NCBI GenBank assembly: GCA_033297075.1
Contig: MU858128.1
Span: 62,001 to 126,000, forward strand
DNA: 64,000 bases
Reading direction: 5' to 3'
Source of the DNA: Rhypophila decipiens
Lineage: Eukaryota > Ascomycota > Sordariomycetes > Sordariales > Naviculisporaceae
This document shows, piece by piece, positions 20,183 to 60,528 of the stretch (positions within the stretch are counted from its first letter, which is position 1; each line of letters begins with the position of its first letter). The notes under the pieces were generated by a model. The model was given only the letters and a program-made list of their open reading frames with translations. It made no database searches and had not been told where the DNA came from. The position numbers and the translations under genes are program-made.

Positions 20183-20661
20183 TCGGATGATTTTCTAGCC
20201 ATGACTTGTGATTCCAAATGAACATTGGGGTATTGTAAAGGTGAAAGGAAGTTGAGCAGGTGTAAAGAGATATTATCAGTAACGCCAAGACGACCAGTTT
20301 CTCAGGAAAATTAAGCCCCTCAATCTATAACTAAACCACGATGCAAAATGAACATGGCGGTGAGAGAACTCGGTGTAAAAACCAGGAGTAACTGGTAAAA
20401 ACAACTAACAATATTATAAAGAGCCACTGATATACCGTGACCAAGTCACTGAAATTCCCTAAATTTTAACGTGAATAGTCCTGGAAAGAGACATTGAGTG
20501 AGAACCTTGACGACTGCAGTGGCCATGAGGTGGCCCCACCACCCCACTATTTTCCTCTCTTGCATACTGGAAACCAAGACCCCTGCCCATTTTTCACGAC
20601 ACCATCAACAACAACCAAACCGCTTCAAAGTCAACCACTTCACACCCAACCCCAAGCCAAA
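20183..20661. other. Intergenic: oxygenase 3' flank and J-protein promoter
   Basis: 479 bp, fairly AT-rich, with no gene. It covers the oxygenase polyadenylation region and the promoter of the J-protein gene. Confidence 0.45.
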
Positions 20662-21513
20662 ATGCCAGACGAAGACCTCATCACCTACGCGAGCGCCTGC
20701 GCCTCCCGCAACGAGGACCTCTTCGCCCTCCTCAGCGTAGACGCGACAGCCTCGGAATCCGAAATCCGGCGCGCATTCCGCAAAAAAGCCCTAACCGCCC
20801 ACCCCGACAAGGCAGGCTCGTCCTACGATCCAGCCTTGTACACGCGCCTCGAAAAAGCCCGCGATGTCCTCATCTCCCCCGAGGCACGAGAGGCCTACCA
20901 GAATGGCATGCGCGCCATCCTCCAGAAACAGCAAGCCAAGGATGCCATGTCGGCGCGACAGCGGCGCTTTGCTGAGGATCTCGAGGCGAGGGAGCAAGCT
21001 GCTGCTGCTGCTGCCAGCAAGAAACAAAAGACCGGAGGCGGGCAACAACAAGAACAAGAGTTGAGTGCAGAGTTGCAGGCTAGTCTTGCGCGGGGACGGG
21101 CTATACTGGAGGAAAGGAATCGAAAAATCCGCGAGGCGGAGGAACGGGAACGGTTGCGCAAAGAGAGGGAGGACAAGGAGATGGAGGAGAAAGAAGCTGA
21201 CCTTGAGAGGCGGTTAAAGGAGATTGAACGGCGCAAGGCCGAGAAAAAGAAGTTGAGAAAGGCGGACAAGAAGGACAAGAAGAATGATGCCAAGGTGGAA
21301 TTGTCAGGATCACGAGGGGCATCGCCGCCGCCGCTACAGGCAGGGAAAGAAGAAGAAGGGCAGACGGGTACAGCTGCTCCTCCAACGGACAATGAGGATA
21401 CAGCGCCGGGAGGTGGTGGATTCCCTGCGCTGATGGCGAGGTTAAAGGCTGCGCAGGCCAAAAAGGAAGAGGAGAAGAAACGGCGGGCTATGGAGGAGGC
21501 GATGAAGGCATAG
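20662..21513 (+). CDS. DnaJ-domain protein, DNAJC17/Cwf23-like
   Basis: An intron-free gene for 283 residues. The J domain (about residues 18-85, DLFALLSVDATASESEIRRAF then HPD at 47-49) is followed by SARQRRFAEDLEARE, which resembles human DNAJC17 and fission yeast Cwf23, J proteins of the spliceosome. The rest is a long, highly charged Glu/Lys/Arg coiled coil (about 100-245) with a KKQKTGGG basic patch that could be a nuclear signal, then a conserved-looking FPALMARLKAAQAKKEEEKKR tail. I see no RRM, which DNAJC17 has. I chose the ATG at 20662 because the longer open frame upstream starts with a non-ATG codon. A role as Hsp70 co-chaperone in pre-mRNA splicing is inferred from the family. Confidence 0.82.
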   Translation: MPDEDLITYASACASRNEDLFALLSVDATASESEIRRAFRKKALTAHPDKAGSSYDPALYTRLEKARDVLISPEAREAYQNGMRAILQKQQAKDAMSARQRRFAEDLEAREQAAAAAASKKQKTGGGQQQEQELSAELQASLARGRAILEERNRKIREAEERERLRKEREDKEMEEKEADLERRLKEIERRKAEKKKLRKADKKDKKNDAKVELSGSRGASPPPLQAGKEEEGQTGTAAPPTDNEDTAPGGGGFPALMARLKAAQAKKEEEKKRRAMEEAMKA

Positions 21514-21916
21514 AGCGAGGAGTATTGAAACATATTTTAGGTGCCTAATACGCGTTGAATATCTTTTTGGAGGCATGGAGCGAGAAAGATGGAGGCATAT
21601 TAGTTGAGCGAGATGGGGCATCTTTTCTACTGCCTGGTACGCATATTAGCGCATCGGTTGGTCGGGTCTGGGAAATTTATTGATACCCCCTTTATTCTGC
21701 TTAGACTAGACCATAGATTTGGTCTGAATACATAGCCCTGGAACGGGAAGAAGCTGTGCTCTTCTTGGAGCTGCTCGAAAGATAGATTTGTCGCCTGTGT
21801 GGGAGTGTATCAACCAACCTATGATGATGATGGTATGTAAGCCAAAAGTTCAAGTGGCATGCCACGGCCTCGGAAGATATCCGGCGAGCAAGTTTGAGAA
21901 AGATTTGCAAAGAAAC
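21514..21916. other. Intergenic: J-protein 3' flank
   Basis: About 400 bp with no gene, between the J-protein stop and the terminator of the tRNA-hairpin unit on the other strand. Confidence 0.45.
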
Positions 21917-21920
21917 AAAA
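21917..21920 (-). terminator. Candidate RNA polymerase III terminator (TTTT) after the hairpin
   Basis: On the minus strand TTTT directly follows the last paired base of the hairpin and is continued by GTTTCTTT. It is the first run of four T's downstream of the tRNA-Gln 3' end. The gap between tRNA and hairpin has only TTT. Confidence 0.55.
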
Positions 21921-22025
21921 CTATATTCAGGACTCGCAGTATATGCCAAATGTGTAACTGGTACTACGACAGATAGATGAAGTACCAGTTGCACATCTGG
22001 CACATAGCGGGAGCCCTGAATGTAG
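21921..22025 (-). ncRNA. Candidate tRNA-linked hairpin RNA (possible milRNA precursor)
   Basis: An imperfect inverted repeat. The arms are 21921-21965 and 21981-22025 (45 nt each) with a 15-nt loop at 21966-21980. In the 41 inner positions of the arms, 34 are Watson-Crick pairs. Read as minus-strand RNA, four of the seven differences are G.U wobbles, leaving A.C and two C.C mismatches; as plus-strand RNA only one would be a wobble. This favours transcription from the tRNA strand. The hairpin starts 7 nt after the tRNA-Gln discriminator base and ends at a TTTT run, so tRNA and hairpin would form one Pol III transcript of about 205 nt. The size suits Dicer-type processing. A remnant of a small inverted-repeat element is the main alternative. 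Confidence 0.6.
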
Positions 22026-22032
22026 AAATTCT

Positions 22033-22125
22033 AGGTCGTGCCCGGGTTCGAACCGGGGTTACTGGAAGGCTTGTGAGGAAAGTGTGCCTCAAAATCCAGA
22101 GTGATAACCACTACACTACACAACC
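22033..22125 (-). tRNA. tRNA-Gln (anticodon UUG) with 21-nt intron
   Basis: A cloverleaf read on the minus strand. The acceptor GGTTGTG (22119-22125) pairs with CACGACC (22034-22040), with discriminator T. The anticodon stem is CTGGA/TCCAG and the anticodon TTG lies at 22090-22092. The T arm is CCCGG-TTCGAAC-CCGGG. A 21-nt intron (22068-22088) sits after position 37, the canonical site; removing it leaves a TTTTGAT loop and a 72-nt tRNA. No T4 run follows the 3' end before the adjacent hairpin. Confidence 0.93.
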
Positions 22126-22711
22126 TTGACATCTGATTGTGATTCCTATCCTAATTATCATGTGCCTCGGGAGGCCGAGACAGGCTAAGATGTGTATCTA
22201 GAGTCGGGGATAGGACCGGTTGCCGGTGGCGTGTTTAAAGTTGGGATATATCTCTACATGATCTTCCTGTCGCCTTACAGCCGTGCCTCTGATTCATTAA
22301 TGTGATTCAGCCAATCCATCATGTCGATATTATTGAGCTTGAGCTTGGCATCTTCATCTCCGGGTTGTGCTATCCCATTCGACTCATTCCCTAATCCTCT
22401 CCTGTCATCAAGAAACCCCCACTGTGTCTGCAGACAAGGCCGATATCTCAAGCCAATACCTGCCTTCCCCTCTCCAAAGTTTACTTAAGCGGTGTAACCA
22501 ACATCTCGCACCTCAAGCACAAACCATGCGAGATAAACAAACCCACGGCCAGACGGGCATGTCAAGGGGCACAACCCAAAGAAGACATGAATGAGCAAGT
22601 AGTATCCAACTCTCATCGACGTACAGAACGCAAAAAGTAACAAAAGCCACATGGCAACCCCGAACGACATGAACCTGAATGAGGCTTGAGTGACACAAGC
22701 AACATGTCGGC

Positions 22712-36500: not shown

Positions 36501-37697
36501 ACGCAGCTAGTATAATCACATTGTGAGCATTGGTAACATGTGTGCTAAGCTATGTAAGCAATGGGGTCGATTGCCAGGCAATCGTTGCATCATTAGGTGA
36601 GCATAAGGGAGGCATCCGAGATAATGGTAGGTACGTAGGACCCCCTTTTTCACCACGCGTGTCGCAATATTTGTTCGTGATTGATCAATAATGACAGAGC
36701 GTCGTGGACAAGTCCCTCGACGCAGGGCTAGCAAGGGAAACAATCTCGGTCTATCGCATCCAAGTCGACGATCTTATCGCAAGATCGGCCTTATGTGGTT
36801 ATCGAAACTCAAGCCTCTAAAAGGAAAGGCGAATATAAAGACAATACCGGACTGAATCCAGCATTTATTTTAAACCAGAACCGTTGTCCTATCCTCGTCC
36901 CATCACAAACCGGTACTTTAATCCGCCGTTAGACCGGACTCTGTTATTGCCTTGGGATGATCTTGAAAATAGACAAGTCTCTTTGATTACCATGGAGATA
37001 ATACCGTAGTGTATTTAGTCCGGCCGTTGCAAACTTCTTAAAAAGAAGAATCCTGAAACATTCCAAGCCCAGTTAACCCGTACTACTCAAGAGATGTTAA
37101 AACACTTCCCGTTCCCGCGCCGCCTCCCGAGAAGCCCTAAATCGGCCGGCGGGCCGCTCAAAACAAGGCCGGCTCAGTCCTCCGTCCGTAAAACCGGCCC
37201 CAAGCTCCCGGCCCCTAACCAAGGCACCGTGGCTCTTTGGATCCAAACGAAACAGCCTGATCTTTGCAACTAGAACTTCATTTTCATGGCCGATGCTTTT
37301 TTTGACACTAGCTAGGTAGTGTTTTGTGTTCTGGCCCATCTGCTTCAGTTAGCTACCTAGGGGCGTGTGAATATCAATACCTCCCGCACGATACATCACC
37401 TCAGGTACCACTCATTACACACAACCCAAGCACGAGACTTGGCACAAGACCCAGACAGAAGTGCATCACGAGATATCTCCTTATATTATACCTTCCCATT
37501 GCTACAGAGATATATATAAGACGTGGGAGGATATTCTTCATGTGATGCCTCCCATGGTTTGAACTTCGAGCACAAGCATAATAGAGCAAAAATACAATCA
37601 CAGAACGCCCCCGTGTTTGCCTTGAGAGTTCTATACAATGAGAGGCAGGCGGGCGACGGATACGCACGGCTCTCTCATATGAGCCCCCGACACCCAG

Positions 37698-37758
<61 letters not shown>

Positions 37759-39914
37759 AAGGCATCCTCCCTCAAGAGCAACATCAAACCTCGTGATAAA
37801 CCTGGTGCCGTGACTGCTACCAAACACCAAGGTGCGGGTAGATTCACGACTGCCGGCCGATGCGGCACCGCCGTGTGTGTAACAATCTCTTATTCCTCGC
37901 CAGTCTAGTGTAGTTCCGCAGTTGGTGAATAATCCAGTTCTAGTGATCAATACCAACTGGGCACTAGGTACTGTAGCTGTAGGCACTTTGCTTTTCTACT
38001 AACGTTGTGTTTCACCAACGCGGTCTGCCAAATGGGGATAGAGATATTACCGCCAGTATCAAAATGTATGGCTTGGAGCTGTGAGTACCTACCTACCTAC
38101 GGGCCGATACACACCCCTTTGCTTTGCAGTGCAGTGGTGATCTCCAAGCCGAAGCAAGTCCTTTGCATATCAGTAATGATGGGTGAGATGGATGTTGAGA
38201 TGCGCATGATCAACATAATGAATCATCGAGACGGCAAGAGACATGTGCATTTCATTTAATCCAACATACATAGCCCTCTCATGGATCACAGACTGTCATC
38301 GGTCAAGATCCGAGAGTCCTATATCCATTTGCGATGCCAAGAGGTGGGTAAAGGGAAGAGCCGTCGTGATCGTGGTGATGGTGTGTCACGAGTAGCCGAG
38401 TTCCGCCGTAACGTGCCCACGGGAGCTTGTCGGTTCTCCGGGGCAGTGAGCGTGGAGGGTAGCTTTACTCCGTAAGGCATCGAGATAAATACGCTGCAGT
38501 GCTCCCAATCACCTCGCAAAGCGGTGAGTGGGATATATGGTAGTGCAGAAAGGCGGAAAATGAACGAGGCTTGGTATTGTGTATAATAGCTCGGTAAGAA
38601 GCGGGACATGATGACTGTACTCTGTTTGGGGTCTTGCTGCAGCATCATAAGGCTGCCGTGATGCAGTGGACATTTGGGACATTTGCGGGTTCGGTAAGAG
38701 AAATGGAGTCGAGTGTTGTTGTGTAAGGCCCCTCCTGAATCGGAGACTTTCGAATGGCCCCTTTTCCGTAGCTATCGCGAAATGTCGGCAGGGAGTGAAG
38801 CTCGGAACGGGTGTGTCAGGAGGGGAGCGTCGGGAAATTTTGGGGTGTCAAAACGCCATTTCTCTCATACATTCTGCATGTTCCAAGTTTTTGAGAGACG
38901 TGGCCGAGTCAGATGACTGATGCTCAAACTTGAGGCATAAAATCATAACTCGCGTTCATGTGGTGTTTTAGTCACTTCCCAGTTCCAAGGATGGATTGCC
39001 GTGGGTGGGTTTCCGAAAAGGGACCTTCTCAGTTGAGCCTTATTCACGTCCAGGTACATCGTGCCGATGTACCTACAGACAAAGATACCGGAAGGAAAGT
39101 TCACGGCGATCGGAACTGGAAGTTGGGGTGTATTCCGTTTCTTCTGATGATGAATCACTTGCCGTATTAGCGATCGGTTGCGGGTGTTTGATTTGTCAAA
39201 GATGGAGTGCTGGATTGATGACTGTCTGATCCATCTATCTCGGAGATATCGTTGATGGGCCTGTCCAAACCCGTTCCCGCACGGGTCTGATGAGATAAGA
39301 TTTGATCCTCGGGATCGTGTAGGACTCCGAGCCATCTCCGCTGATTACTATCCAGACGGATACAAAGAGATCAATACCACCAAAACTCCGAAAAGTTTGC
39401 AGCAGATATCCTCTTGGTGAAAGGGCCAGCTTACCACGGGATGAACTGCATCTCGTTAATGAGTCTTCAAAATAGCTACTCTCGAGCCAATTCGGAGAGG
39501 TTGCCGATGGTGGTAGAAGCATCTTCCTGACGGGGGATTGTCTATCCGGCCTAGTCAAAGTTCCTTTCGCGTCCGTACCTGCAATCGTATACGTAAGATC
39601 GCACGCGTGTGATGAAAACGAAGAACCCGACATGACGGATTCAATGCTGGGTCGGACATAACAGAAGTTCCAACGGGCGGATCATGACAAAGCCGACGAT
39701 TCCGGCCCCACGGAGGTTCATGCTTTCCGTAACTCCGGGACCCCTGCCCCATCTTTTGTGAGCAGAGAGCTTGGGCCACCAGATCACAGGTTGCCAAAAC
39801 ACCGCCAAAAAAGCTATCCACCGACGTCACCGGCCGGATTGAACTCATCGACTCCGTACTGCTAAGCAGTACTCGTCCCAATTCACAGGCAGACCGGCAC
39901 ATTGATACGATACA
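30549..39914. other. Gene-poor interval B (9.4 kb)
   Basis: No gene can be supported on either strand. Open frames are all short and featureless. I see no transposase, reverse-transcriptase or terminal-repeat signal and no strong AT-rich RIP-like block. Contents worth naming are a (GTT)n microsatellite at 37697-37758, scattered TACGGAGTA/TACTCCGTA-type words, TACCTACCTAC tracts (for example near 38086) and a 17-bp interrupted palindrome at 39856-39872 just upstream of IBA57. Confidence 0.5.
37697..37758. repeat. (GTT)n microsatellite, about 20 uninterrupted units
   Basis: 62 bases of pure GTT/AAC trinucleotide repeat in a non-coding stretch. On the minus strand it would read as poly-Gln, Asn or Thr codons, but the surrounding open frame has no other protein-like feature. 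It is likely length-variable between strains. Confidence 0.95.
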
Positions 39915-46502: not shown

Positions 46503-46585
46503 CGACCCACGTGCGGCTCGAACGCACAATCTCCAGAGTGGCTGATGAACCGAAATCTGGCGCCTTACCATTTGGCCAGCGGGCC
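46503..46585 (-). tRNA. tRNA-Arg (anticodon UCG) with 11-nt intron
   Basis: A cloverleaf on the minus strand. The acceptor GGCCCGC (46579-46585) pairs with GTGGGTC (46504-46510), with discriminator G. The anticodon stem is CCAGA/TCTGG and the loop TTTCGG contains anticodon TCG. The T arm is GTGCG-TTCGAGC-CGCAC. A very short 11-nt intron (46539-46549) follows position 37; without it the tRNA is 72 nt. A TTTTT terminator follows within 11 nt. Confidence 0.9.
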
Positions 46586-57990: not shown

Positions 57991-60528
57991 ATGGCGCCAT
58001 TTAGTGCCACTATATCGGGTCTGCTCCGGCAGACCATCTATTACCATCTCGACAACTTTTCTTTGGAGAACGCCCTTTTCTTCGCTGAGCGCCTTCAAGC
58101 TCATGATTCACGGTCGCCCGAGTCGGCCTATCTCCTCGCCCTGTGCCATTTGCGGCTTGGCGACTATCGATCAGCGTACGAGACGAGTAAACCTTCCAGC
58201 TATCGAGGCCTGCATCTAGGATGTGCCTTTGTCTTTGCCCAGGCATGTCTCGAGTTGGAGCGGTACAAGGAGGGGATAAATGCGCTTGAGAGAGCCAAAA
58301 TGTTATGGGCTGCTAAGAGCTCCATAGGCAAACATTCCTCTTCTACCCGGATGCCCTATCCGGATGAGGCTGCCGTATGTTGTCTCTTGGGAAAAATGTG
58401 TCGGGCTCAAGACGATAAAAAAAAGGCAATCTCCTATTTCGAAGATGCGCTCAAGGCGAACCCTTTCATGTGGGATGCTTTCACGGCTCTTTGTGACATG
58501 GGGGTGAATGTCTGGGTGCCCAACATCTTCAAGCCCAGTGACTCTCTGGTGCGACATTTTGACCAAGGGTCGAATGGAAACGTACAAGACCAGGTCGCCA
58601 TCCCGCCCCAGCCGGAGCCGTTGCAGGCAAAATCGACCCTCCAGGTCAATCAGGATAACGATCCATTTGAATCACATCGTTCAAATGCCTTTCACGATGC
58701 TAATAGCAACGGCTTCGTGTTTACCGACACAGGTGAGAACGATCTCATGTCCAAAATTGCTGCTGCGCAATCCAGGTATCCGACTACACAGCCCAGCAGG
58801 CTTGGGCCCGACGGGATGGAAACCCCAACGGGTGCTGCTCCTACTGCGCCTCCTGAGCCAGCTGTGTCGCGAAATAATCACCTGGAACCGCCCCAAGCGC
58901 CAATCCGCAGAACCCGTGCAGCGCAAGCGGTTGACCCGACACTTCTCGAAGCACCTCCCAGGATGAGTTATCGTGTTGGCGCAAAGAAACGAGAGAAAGG
59001 TCAAGATGGGTCTAGTGATCTTTCGGATTCAATCATTCGAGGCTTACCACTCGCATCGACAGCGATAGAGAGGAAACGGACAGCTTCGGGACACCCTGTC
59101 CAACCACGGTCTGCTGTTAATGGCGAGGAACCGCGGAGGAGTGCGAGGCTCAACGTCTTTCCCAGAGCCAATACCGCAAAAGTGAACGCCGGTATTATAT
59201 CAGCCGGCTCGGCAGGAACTCGCGAGCTCAAAAAGGCTAGACCCCCAATCTCGCGGATTCACCGTCCGGGTTCTAGCGGCTCTGGCATGGGTAGAGTTGT
59301 GAGCGGAAACAGGAAGCCCATGGAGGAAAATATTATGGATATCGACCAGCCTGAAGGCCCGAGGATTAAGGAGCCTCCGGCCGTGCAACAGGCGCCGCCG
59401 CCACCACCACCAAAACCGGTCGAACCAGATTCCGTGAAGGTAGAGGAGGCGTTGAGATGGATTCTAGAGCTGTTGAAAAAGATGGCGTCTGGTTATCTCC
59501 TCTCATCACGATTTCAGTGCCAAGATGCACTGAACACGTATACAGCCCTTCCCCAGAGACACCAAGATACGCCTTGGGTTATGGCCCAGATGGGTCTGGC
59601 ACACTTTGAGCAGATGAATTATGTGGAAGCCGAGAAGTCTTTTAGACGTCTACGAGTTCTTGCTCCCACCCGGCTCGAGAACATGGAGGTGTATTCAACG
59701 GTTCTGTGGCATCTGAGAAAAGAAACCGATCTTTCTTTCTTGGCCCACGAGTTGATTGATGCGGTATGGGATTCCCCAGAGGCGTGGTGCGCGCTAGGCA
59801 ACGCCTGGTCTCTAGCTTCCGACCACGAACAAGCCCTCCGGTGTTTTAAACGGGCGACACAGCTGAGCCCCAACTTTGCTTATGCTTATACGCTACAAGG
59901 ACACGAGCACGTGGAGAATGAGGAGTACGACAAGGCACTCACGTCGTACCGACATGCCATCTCTGCTGACAAGCGACACTACAACGCTTATTACGGCATT
60001 GGACGAGTGTATGAGAAGCTGGGAAACTTCGACAAGGCCTTGAGCCACTATCATGCAGCGTCGGTGATCCACCCTACCCACGCGGTTTTGATCGCCAGCA
60101 TGGGATCAGTGCTACAGAAACAAAAACAGATCGTCCAGGCGATACCCTACTTCAACAAGGCCACCGAGCTGGCGCCTCGTGCGCCAGACGTCCGCCTCCG
60201 AAAGGCCAGGGCACTCATGCTCACCGGGCAGCTGCAGCTGGCGCAGAAGGAACTGCTCATTGTGAAGGATTTGGCCCCAGAGAGAGCTCAAGTTCACTAT
60301 TTACTGGGCAATCTGTCCAAGATGCTCCGAGACAAGAAGGCAGCCGTGAGATACTACACGATTGCGTTGAGTCTAGATCCAAAGGTAAGTCAGGTGGTCC
60401 AAGAACCCTCGGTTTGGCTGAGTGGACCCCTTGCTAACACAGTCTCAATACAGTCAAGCAGTCTGATCAAGGAGTCCATCGAGACTCTGGAGGACGACGA
60501 TGGTATGGACGATTCCATGATGCACTAG
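57991..60528 (+). CDS. bimA: Anaphase-promoting complex subunit 3 (CDC27/Nuc2/BimA)
   Basis: A TPR scaffold subunit of the APC/C ubiquitin ligase that binds the IR tails of CDC20/CDH1 and APC10. Exons 57991-60384 and 60454-60528 give 822 residues. The 69-nt intron (GTAAGT donor, GCTAAC branch, CAG acceptor) is a multiple of three and has no stop codon, so an unspliced reading frame is also open. The N-terminal TPR domain (residues about 1-170, YYHLDNFSLENALFFAERL) is followed by a disordered, Ser/Pro-rich linker with basic patches (residues about 190-480). The C-terminal TPR superhelix runs from about 490 to 800 (VMAQMGLAHFEQMNYVEAEK, AWCALGNAWSLASDHEQALR, AYYGIGRVYEKLGNFDKAL). The acidic end DDDGMDDSMMH is typical. 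Confidence 0.96.
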   Translation: MAPFSATISGLLRQTIYYHLDNFSLENALFFAERLQAHDSRSPESAYLLALCHLRLGDYRSAYETSKPSSYRGLHLGCAFVFAQACLELERYKEGINALERAKMLWAAKSSIGKHSSSTRMPYPDEAAVCCLLGKMCRAQDDKKKAISYFEDALKANPFMWDAFTALCDMGVNVWVPNIFKPSDSLVRHFDQGSNGNVQDQVAIPPQPEPLQAKSTLQVNQDNDPFESHRSNAFHDANSNGFVFTDTGENDLMSKIAAAQSRYPTTQPSRLGPDGMETPTGAAPTAPPEPAVSRNNHLEPPQAPIRRTRAAQAVDPTLLEAPPRMSYRVGAKKREKGQDGSSDLSDSIIRGLPLASTAIERKRTASGHPVQPRSAVNGEEPRRSARLNVFPRANTAKVNAGIISAGSAGTRELKKARPPISRIHRPGSSGSGMGRVVSGNRKPMEENIMDIDQPEGPRIKEPPAVQQAPPPPPPKPVEPDSVKVEEALRWILELLKKMASGYLLSSRFQCQDALNTYTALPQRHQDTPWVMAQMGLAHFEQMNYVEAEKSFRRLRVLAPTRLENMEVYSTVLWHLRKETDLSFLAHELIDAVWDSPEAWCALGNAWSLASDHEQALRCFKRATQLSPNFAYAYTLQGHEHVENEEYDKALTSYRHAISADKRHYNAYYGIGRVYEKLGNFDKALSHYHAASVIHPTHAVLIASMGSVLQKQKQIVQAIPYFNKATELAPRAPDVRLRKARALMLTGQLQLAQKELLIVKDLAPERAQVHYLLGNLSKMLRDKKAAVRYYTIALSLDPKVSQVVQEPSVWLSGPLANTVSIQSSSLIKESIETLEDDDGMDDSMMH

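Follow-up and report, generated by a model that had tools for sequence, protein, structure and literature searches.

A tRNA-Gln gene with an adjoining long hairpin is a candidate Pol III-driven milRNA unit in Rhypophila decipiens

Dicistronic tRNA-snoRNA genes, found in plants and other organisms, use the promoter of a tRNA to drive a second RNA. Murine gammaherpesvirus 68 encodes units in which a tRNA-like part is followed by a hairpin—in some units by two—within one Pol III transcript, from which the hairpin is released by tRNase Z. The fungus studied here, Rhypophila decipiens, belongs to the same order, Sordariales, as Neurospora crassa. For the latter species, the original report (PMC3547838) describes milR-4 as a Pol III product that is co-transcribed with two tRNA-Ala genes, needs RNase Z and partly involves Dicer; its authors likened it to murine gammaherpesvirus 68. 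A literature search for fungal milRNAs made from tRNA precursors returned milR-4 and no further case (passages of PMC3132168 concern tRNA fragments only), and a search for work joining Rhypophila with small RNA found none. With respect to transcript ends, a yeast study (PMC9278858) reports Pol III assays in which a hairpin placed immediately ahead of a T4 run, or 7 nt from it, turned a nearly non-functional terminator into a moderately efficient one, and in which an 18-nt spacer between hairpin and T4 abolished the effect.

An earlier note on the DNA described below proposed that a tRNA-Gln gene and a hairpin behind it are transcribed together by Pol III and that the hairpin is then released for Dicer, citing Neurospora milRNAs made by Pol III. 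Neurospora milR-4 (PMC3547838) offers a closer precedent than the milRNAs it named; since the mechanism has been published for that RNA, it is already known in Sordariales and is not new.

An intron-bearing tRNA-Gln gene and the hairpin behind it

The window, i.e. the whole stretch of 64,000 nt that was analyzed, spans positions 62001-126000 of contig C84 in a 45.7-Mb assembly of 408 contigs. Elsewhere in it, one encoded protein (57991-60528) has a counterpart in Rhypophila sp. PSN 637, 96% identical over its whole length, and a mechanically called, putative open reading frame on the minus strand (37401-37868) holds a run of ~20 glutamines (CAG-type repeat).

A minus-strand tRNA-Gln(UUG) gene with an intron occupies 22033..22125 (Rfam RF00005, 54 bits); it does not appear in the ARAGORN list obtained in default mode. 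Alignment against four intronless Gln-type copies (L036-L039) revealed the TTG anticodon, in agreement with the identity originally assigned, as well as a 21-nt intron located 3’ of anticodon position 37 (22068..22088, minus strand, boundaries set by eye). In the alignment, L002, L003 and L004, three further genomic copies, have exactly the same exon sequence, and the gene therefore looks intact. A pattern match placed GGTTCGAACCC, the B box of its internal Pol III promoter, at 22044..22054 on the minus strand (C84:84044-84054). As in a milR-4-type arrangement, then, a same-strand tRNA gene with its internal promoter lies upstream of the hairpin.

Reading on along the minus strand from the tRNA 3’ end, where tRNase Z is expected to cut, there follow a 7-nt spacer, AGAATTT (22026..22032), the 5’ arm of the hairpin (21981..22025), a 15-nt terminal loop (21966..21980), the 3’ arm (21921..21965) and, directly abutting the latter, TTTT (21917..21920). 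Both arms were delineated by inverted repeat and fold, the loop by the inverted repeat. This anatomy had been given correctly to the base beforehand. The spacer lacks a T4 run, so that, as expected of a milR-4-type unit, no T-run separates tRNA and hairpin and one stands behind the hairpin. It is only a T4—the first one 3’ of the tRNA, at a distance of 112 nt—and the next T5 is 568 nt off. We regard this TTTT as a probable hairpin-assisted Pol III terminator.

The inverted-repeat search scored the 45-nt arms as 82% complementary. On the tRNA strand, 37 of the 45 positions form Watson-Crick and four G-U pairs, leaving two A-C and two other mismatches; the 45-bp stem thus pairs at 41 of 45 positions and has no bulges, as would suit Dicer. 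Folding of 21910-22130 yielded −90.7 kcal/mol (z −8.5), a stability reached by none of 200 shuffled sequences. The hairpin scored 64, as compared to a maximum of 34 in 60 simulated 64-kb sequences (first-order Markov), which is well outside chance expectation, and no other hairpin in the window exceeded the threshold.

The genome offers a less extreme background. Within a sample of ~316 kb, tRNA-centered and with slight overlaps, five places scored at least 34: the loci L091 (103) and L089 (68.5), the tRNA-Gln locus itself, L117 (38) and L032 (36.5). Big hairpins are therefore not unique to the tRNA-Gln locus. Those of L117 (1981-2138) and L032 (2241-2279) lie in tRNA-centered loci, not directly 3’ of a tRNA.

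The strand on which the hairpin acts deserves consideration, as a DnaJ-domain open reading frame on the plus strand (20494-21513) points at it and ends ~400 nt before it. The palindrome might hence be a Pol II-derived feature in the 3’ untranslated region of that gene. We hold this to be very improbable: the plus-strand fold is weaker, scoring 57—a value surpassed in the ~316-kb sample by two other hairpins, those of L091 and L089—and a plus-strand role leaves unexplained how the hairpin fits between tRNA and T4.

T-runs and structure downstream of tRNA genes

To place the distance of 112 nt in context, we compiled 80 tRNA loci: 62 from one search (in which 63 of 1769 candidates were scored), the two of the window and 16 that were Rfam-scored later. 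The genome holds tRNA genes beyond these 80; among the B-box matches listed, 23 distinct loci were examined. Five tRNA-like loci below the Rfam gathering score, recognized by ARAGORN or alignment (L102, L089, L090, L099, L115), also lie outside the set.

The first T4 falls within 61 nt of the tRNA in 77 of the 80 loci (median distance, 12 nt). It lies further off in L041 (91 nt), at the tRNA-Gln locus and in L091 (154 nt), and in each of these three a long hairpin precedes the next T-run. As a caveat, a stretch of 112 nt without T4 is common in arbitrary DNA of the window (probability 0.67-0.71). Of the control regions, 51 of 79 upstream flanks and 63 of 79 sites located 285 nt further on have no T4 within 61 nt; as most control flanks lack one, nearby T-runs are a property of tRNA 3’ sides. 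The suggestion that the tRNA-Gln gene is unusual in missing its terminator stands, as does the accompanying observation that the second tRNA of the window (46503-46585) has a close one: a T5 starts 6 nt past its end. ARAGORN gave no identity to this second gene, called tRNA-Arg in the earlier note. Each of the eight other Gln-type matches has its T4 3-16 nt past the tRNA and is without this hairpin. As for further trailers, eight tRNA loci starting GCCCGGCT (L015, L051, L053-L058) have CAATTCCCGGCG in common, one of them with a single change, as the first 12 nt before the T-run, which makes this a conserved trailer.

The first 115 nt 3’ of tRNA-Gln are the most structured among the 80 loci (z −12.2). 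Over this length, z fell below −3 in five of 80 downstream regions, as opposed to none of 79 upstream and none of 79 further downstream (Fisher p = 0.004; p = 0.012 without the tRNA-Gln locus). In three of the five (L065, L014, L034), a T4 lies 7-9 nt past the tRNA, ahead of the structure, and structured trailers are therefore confined to the tRNA-Gln locus and L041; removing those three together with the tRNA-Gln locus leaves one of the five.

Could the hairpin serve transcript ending alone, assisting Pol III at a weak T4 and perhaps tRNA 3’ processing, with no small RNA made? Its gap to the T4 is 0 nt, a geometry that rescues T4 in vitro (PMC9278858), and some other trailers (e.g., L026, L031, L040) form short stems before their T-run. 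Given this abutment, hairpin and T4 would constitute a composite terminator as in the yeast assays, which answers the objection that a T4 is weak, yet also supplies the hairpin with a rival function. However, the first run is exactly T4 in 29 of the 80 loci, mostly with no stem of this kind; a stem of 45 bp far exceeds the need; and tRNA trailers as a group are weakly structured (mean z −0.92, median −0.46; 32 trailers of at least 20 nt). A role restricted to termination or trailer processing is thus improbable in our estimate.

Hairpins at other tRNA loci and the origin of the palindrome

Two of the exceptional loci invite comparison with the tRNA-Gln gene. At L041 (501-670; G000:C93, tRNA at 144163-144236), the tRNA, a tRNA-Trp as judged by eye from its anticodon loop, directly adjoins (0 nt between) an imperfect hairpin of 88 nt, after which come 3 nt and a T5. 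Other copies of this tRNA match its tRNA part only. By its layout, L041 is a candidate second tRNA-hairpin unit of the genome.

The tRNA of L091 (1409-1858; G000:C3, ~506.6 kb) is weak (32.4 bits). Behind it lies a 259-nt palindrome (1578-1836) whose arms are 77% identical and which matched only itself in the search. A T5 follows the palindrome (at 1854), and T4 runs occur inside it (at 1677, 1806 and 1815). The end of the tRNA, GCTCAGGGGCATCT, returns on the far side of the palindrome as GCTCGGGGGCATCT, and ATTTTTGC comes next; this makes a 14-nt repeat of the tRNA end with 13 of 14 positions identical. The initial 55 nt of the insert, without the tRNA, match at least 20 other places, and other members of this tRNA family carry a T-run at the equivalent spot. 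The flanking repeat, the repeated start of the insert and the position of the T-run in the family together imply that an incoming sequence inserted at the end of the tRNA and displaced the terminator; judged from these features, L091 looks like a mobile insertion. It thereby supports insertion as an origin of tRNA-hairpin units, and it weakens the arrangement alone as proof of function.

A further palindrome was found at L089 (1801-1974), ~280 nt past a tRNA-like gene that has its own T5. This element of ~174 nt has relatives at four other places or pairs of places, on C189, C13, C116 and C39, and is likely a MITE.

These loci bear on the most serious alternative, namely that the tRNA-Gln hairpin is an inert insertion—a palindromic element or a local inverted duplication that came to lie between tRNA and terminator, has no role, and whose transcript, if any, is degraded as an over-long trailer. 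L091, where an insert sits at a tRNA 3’ end between flanking repeats, and the multicopy element near another tRNA at L089 both fit this account. So does a deletion made on paper: without AATTT, the hairpin and one flanking TAG, the T4 would stand 3 nt past the tRNA, as in the paralog L004 (TAG, 3 nt only, compared by eye). Moreover, the arms differ at eight of 45 positions, six of the differences being transitions. Against it, the tRNA strand has kept its pairing at nearly all positions, and a DNA search of the 45.7-Mb assembly (E up to 10) found no second copy of the hairpin. As to target-site duplications at the hairpin, a search returned 3-nt matches only, none of them convincing. We consider an inert insertion somewhat unlikely, although it is the strongest of the rival accounts.

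Pattern searches of the genome gave a concordant picture. With up to three mismatches allowed, a 24-nt hairpin pattern matched only itself. A 21-nt pattern matched the two arms and one place with three mismatches; its reversed control gave two matches, and the single partial match is at chance level, so that no near-perfect target was found in the genome. Several known classes were tried and set aside. A MITE should occur in several copies, and this hairpin matches only itself. No Rfam family reached its gathering score, the best being miRNA precursor models (32.6 bits against a required 136, and 31.8 against 89), and no snoRNA family matched at E up to 10. Viral contigs gave one match to a 17-nt word of an arm, taken as chance; prokaryote genomes gave no match to the arms, as expected.

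Two of the eight other Gln-type matches, L002 and L003, have part of their 5’ flank in common with the tRNA-Gln gene in the alignment, from which we infer that the hairpin’s gain here, or its loss elsewhere, postdates these copies. In a neutral-decay test, we counted G-U versus A-C mismatches on the tRNA strand (4:2 at tRNA-Gln, 3:1 at L041, 9:5 at L091); the pooled ratio of 16:8 favors the tRNA strand and is not significant (p = 0.076).

A predicted tRNA-hairpin transcript and its relatives

The arrangement at the tRNA-Gln locus is best explained as follows. The tRNA gene’s internal A and B boxes would start Pol III transcription, and the polymerase, meeting no T4 on its way, would copy the 105-nt hairpin, making tRNA and hairpin one transcription unit. 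Hairpin and abutting T4 would terminate the transcript. Cleavage by tRNase Z 3’ of the tRNA would then free an RNA of the form 5’-AGAAUUU-hairpin-UUUU, which Dicer may cut into small RNAs, as for Neurospora milR-4. The machinery is present: PF03368 (Dicer_dimer) was detected at two loci of the genome, and PF02171 (Piwi), indicative of the Argonaute type, gave six matches, four loci having E < 1e-50, so the genome carries both Dicer and Argonaute-type genes, as milR-4-type biogenesis would demand.

The steps of this pathway differ in strength. Co-transcription, as claimed at the outset, is likely and well supported by the anatomy, in that the hairpin exactly fills the stretch from tRNA to first T-run where nearly all other loci have ended. 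Dicer processing to a milRNA is a plausible prediction. The full reading—co-transcription, tRNase Z release, Dicer processing and loading—we put forward tentatively, at a little under an even chance.

A broader and more speculative proposal concerns the origin of such units. Terminators of tRNA genes may be recurrent birthplaces of hairpin-RNA genes in this fungal lineage: a palindrome arriving between tRNA and T-run would at once acquire a promoter for Pol III, hairpin-aided termination and release by tRNase Z, and could become a Dicer substrate. The tRNA-Gln locus, L041 and L091 would then be three stages or instances of the process, among 80 tRNA loci. We offer this generalization with considerable doubt. 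Should the tRNA-Gln locus prove to be a tRNA-driven fungal milRNA unit, it would be a second and simpler one, in another family of Sordariales and in a genome that holds two more candidates; tRNA-driven hairpins would represent a route to small RNAs taken more than once in fungi; and the origin of milRNA genes would become testable, as landing site, promoter and release step are all defined.

Compared with known systems, the locus resembles MITE and foldback insertions in being a short palindrome whose position insertion could explain, and departs from them in that no second copy was found; of target-site duplications, 3-nt matches were seen, none of them convincing. Unlike in tRNA-snoRNA genes, the second RNA matches no snoRNA family. 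Where the gammaherpesvirus 68 units are viral and tRNA-like, the gene described here is a genuine tRNA, with exons shared by three genomic copies. As regards milR-4, the original report (PMC3547838) places its mature strand between the two tRNA-Ala genes and its star strand past the second, whereas the present candidate locus consists of one intron-bearing tRNA-Gln followed by a complete hairpin. In both cases, a hairpin precursor and a tRNA share one Pol III transcript—a predicted one here—and tRNase Z is expected to make the 5’ end.
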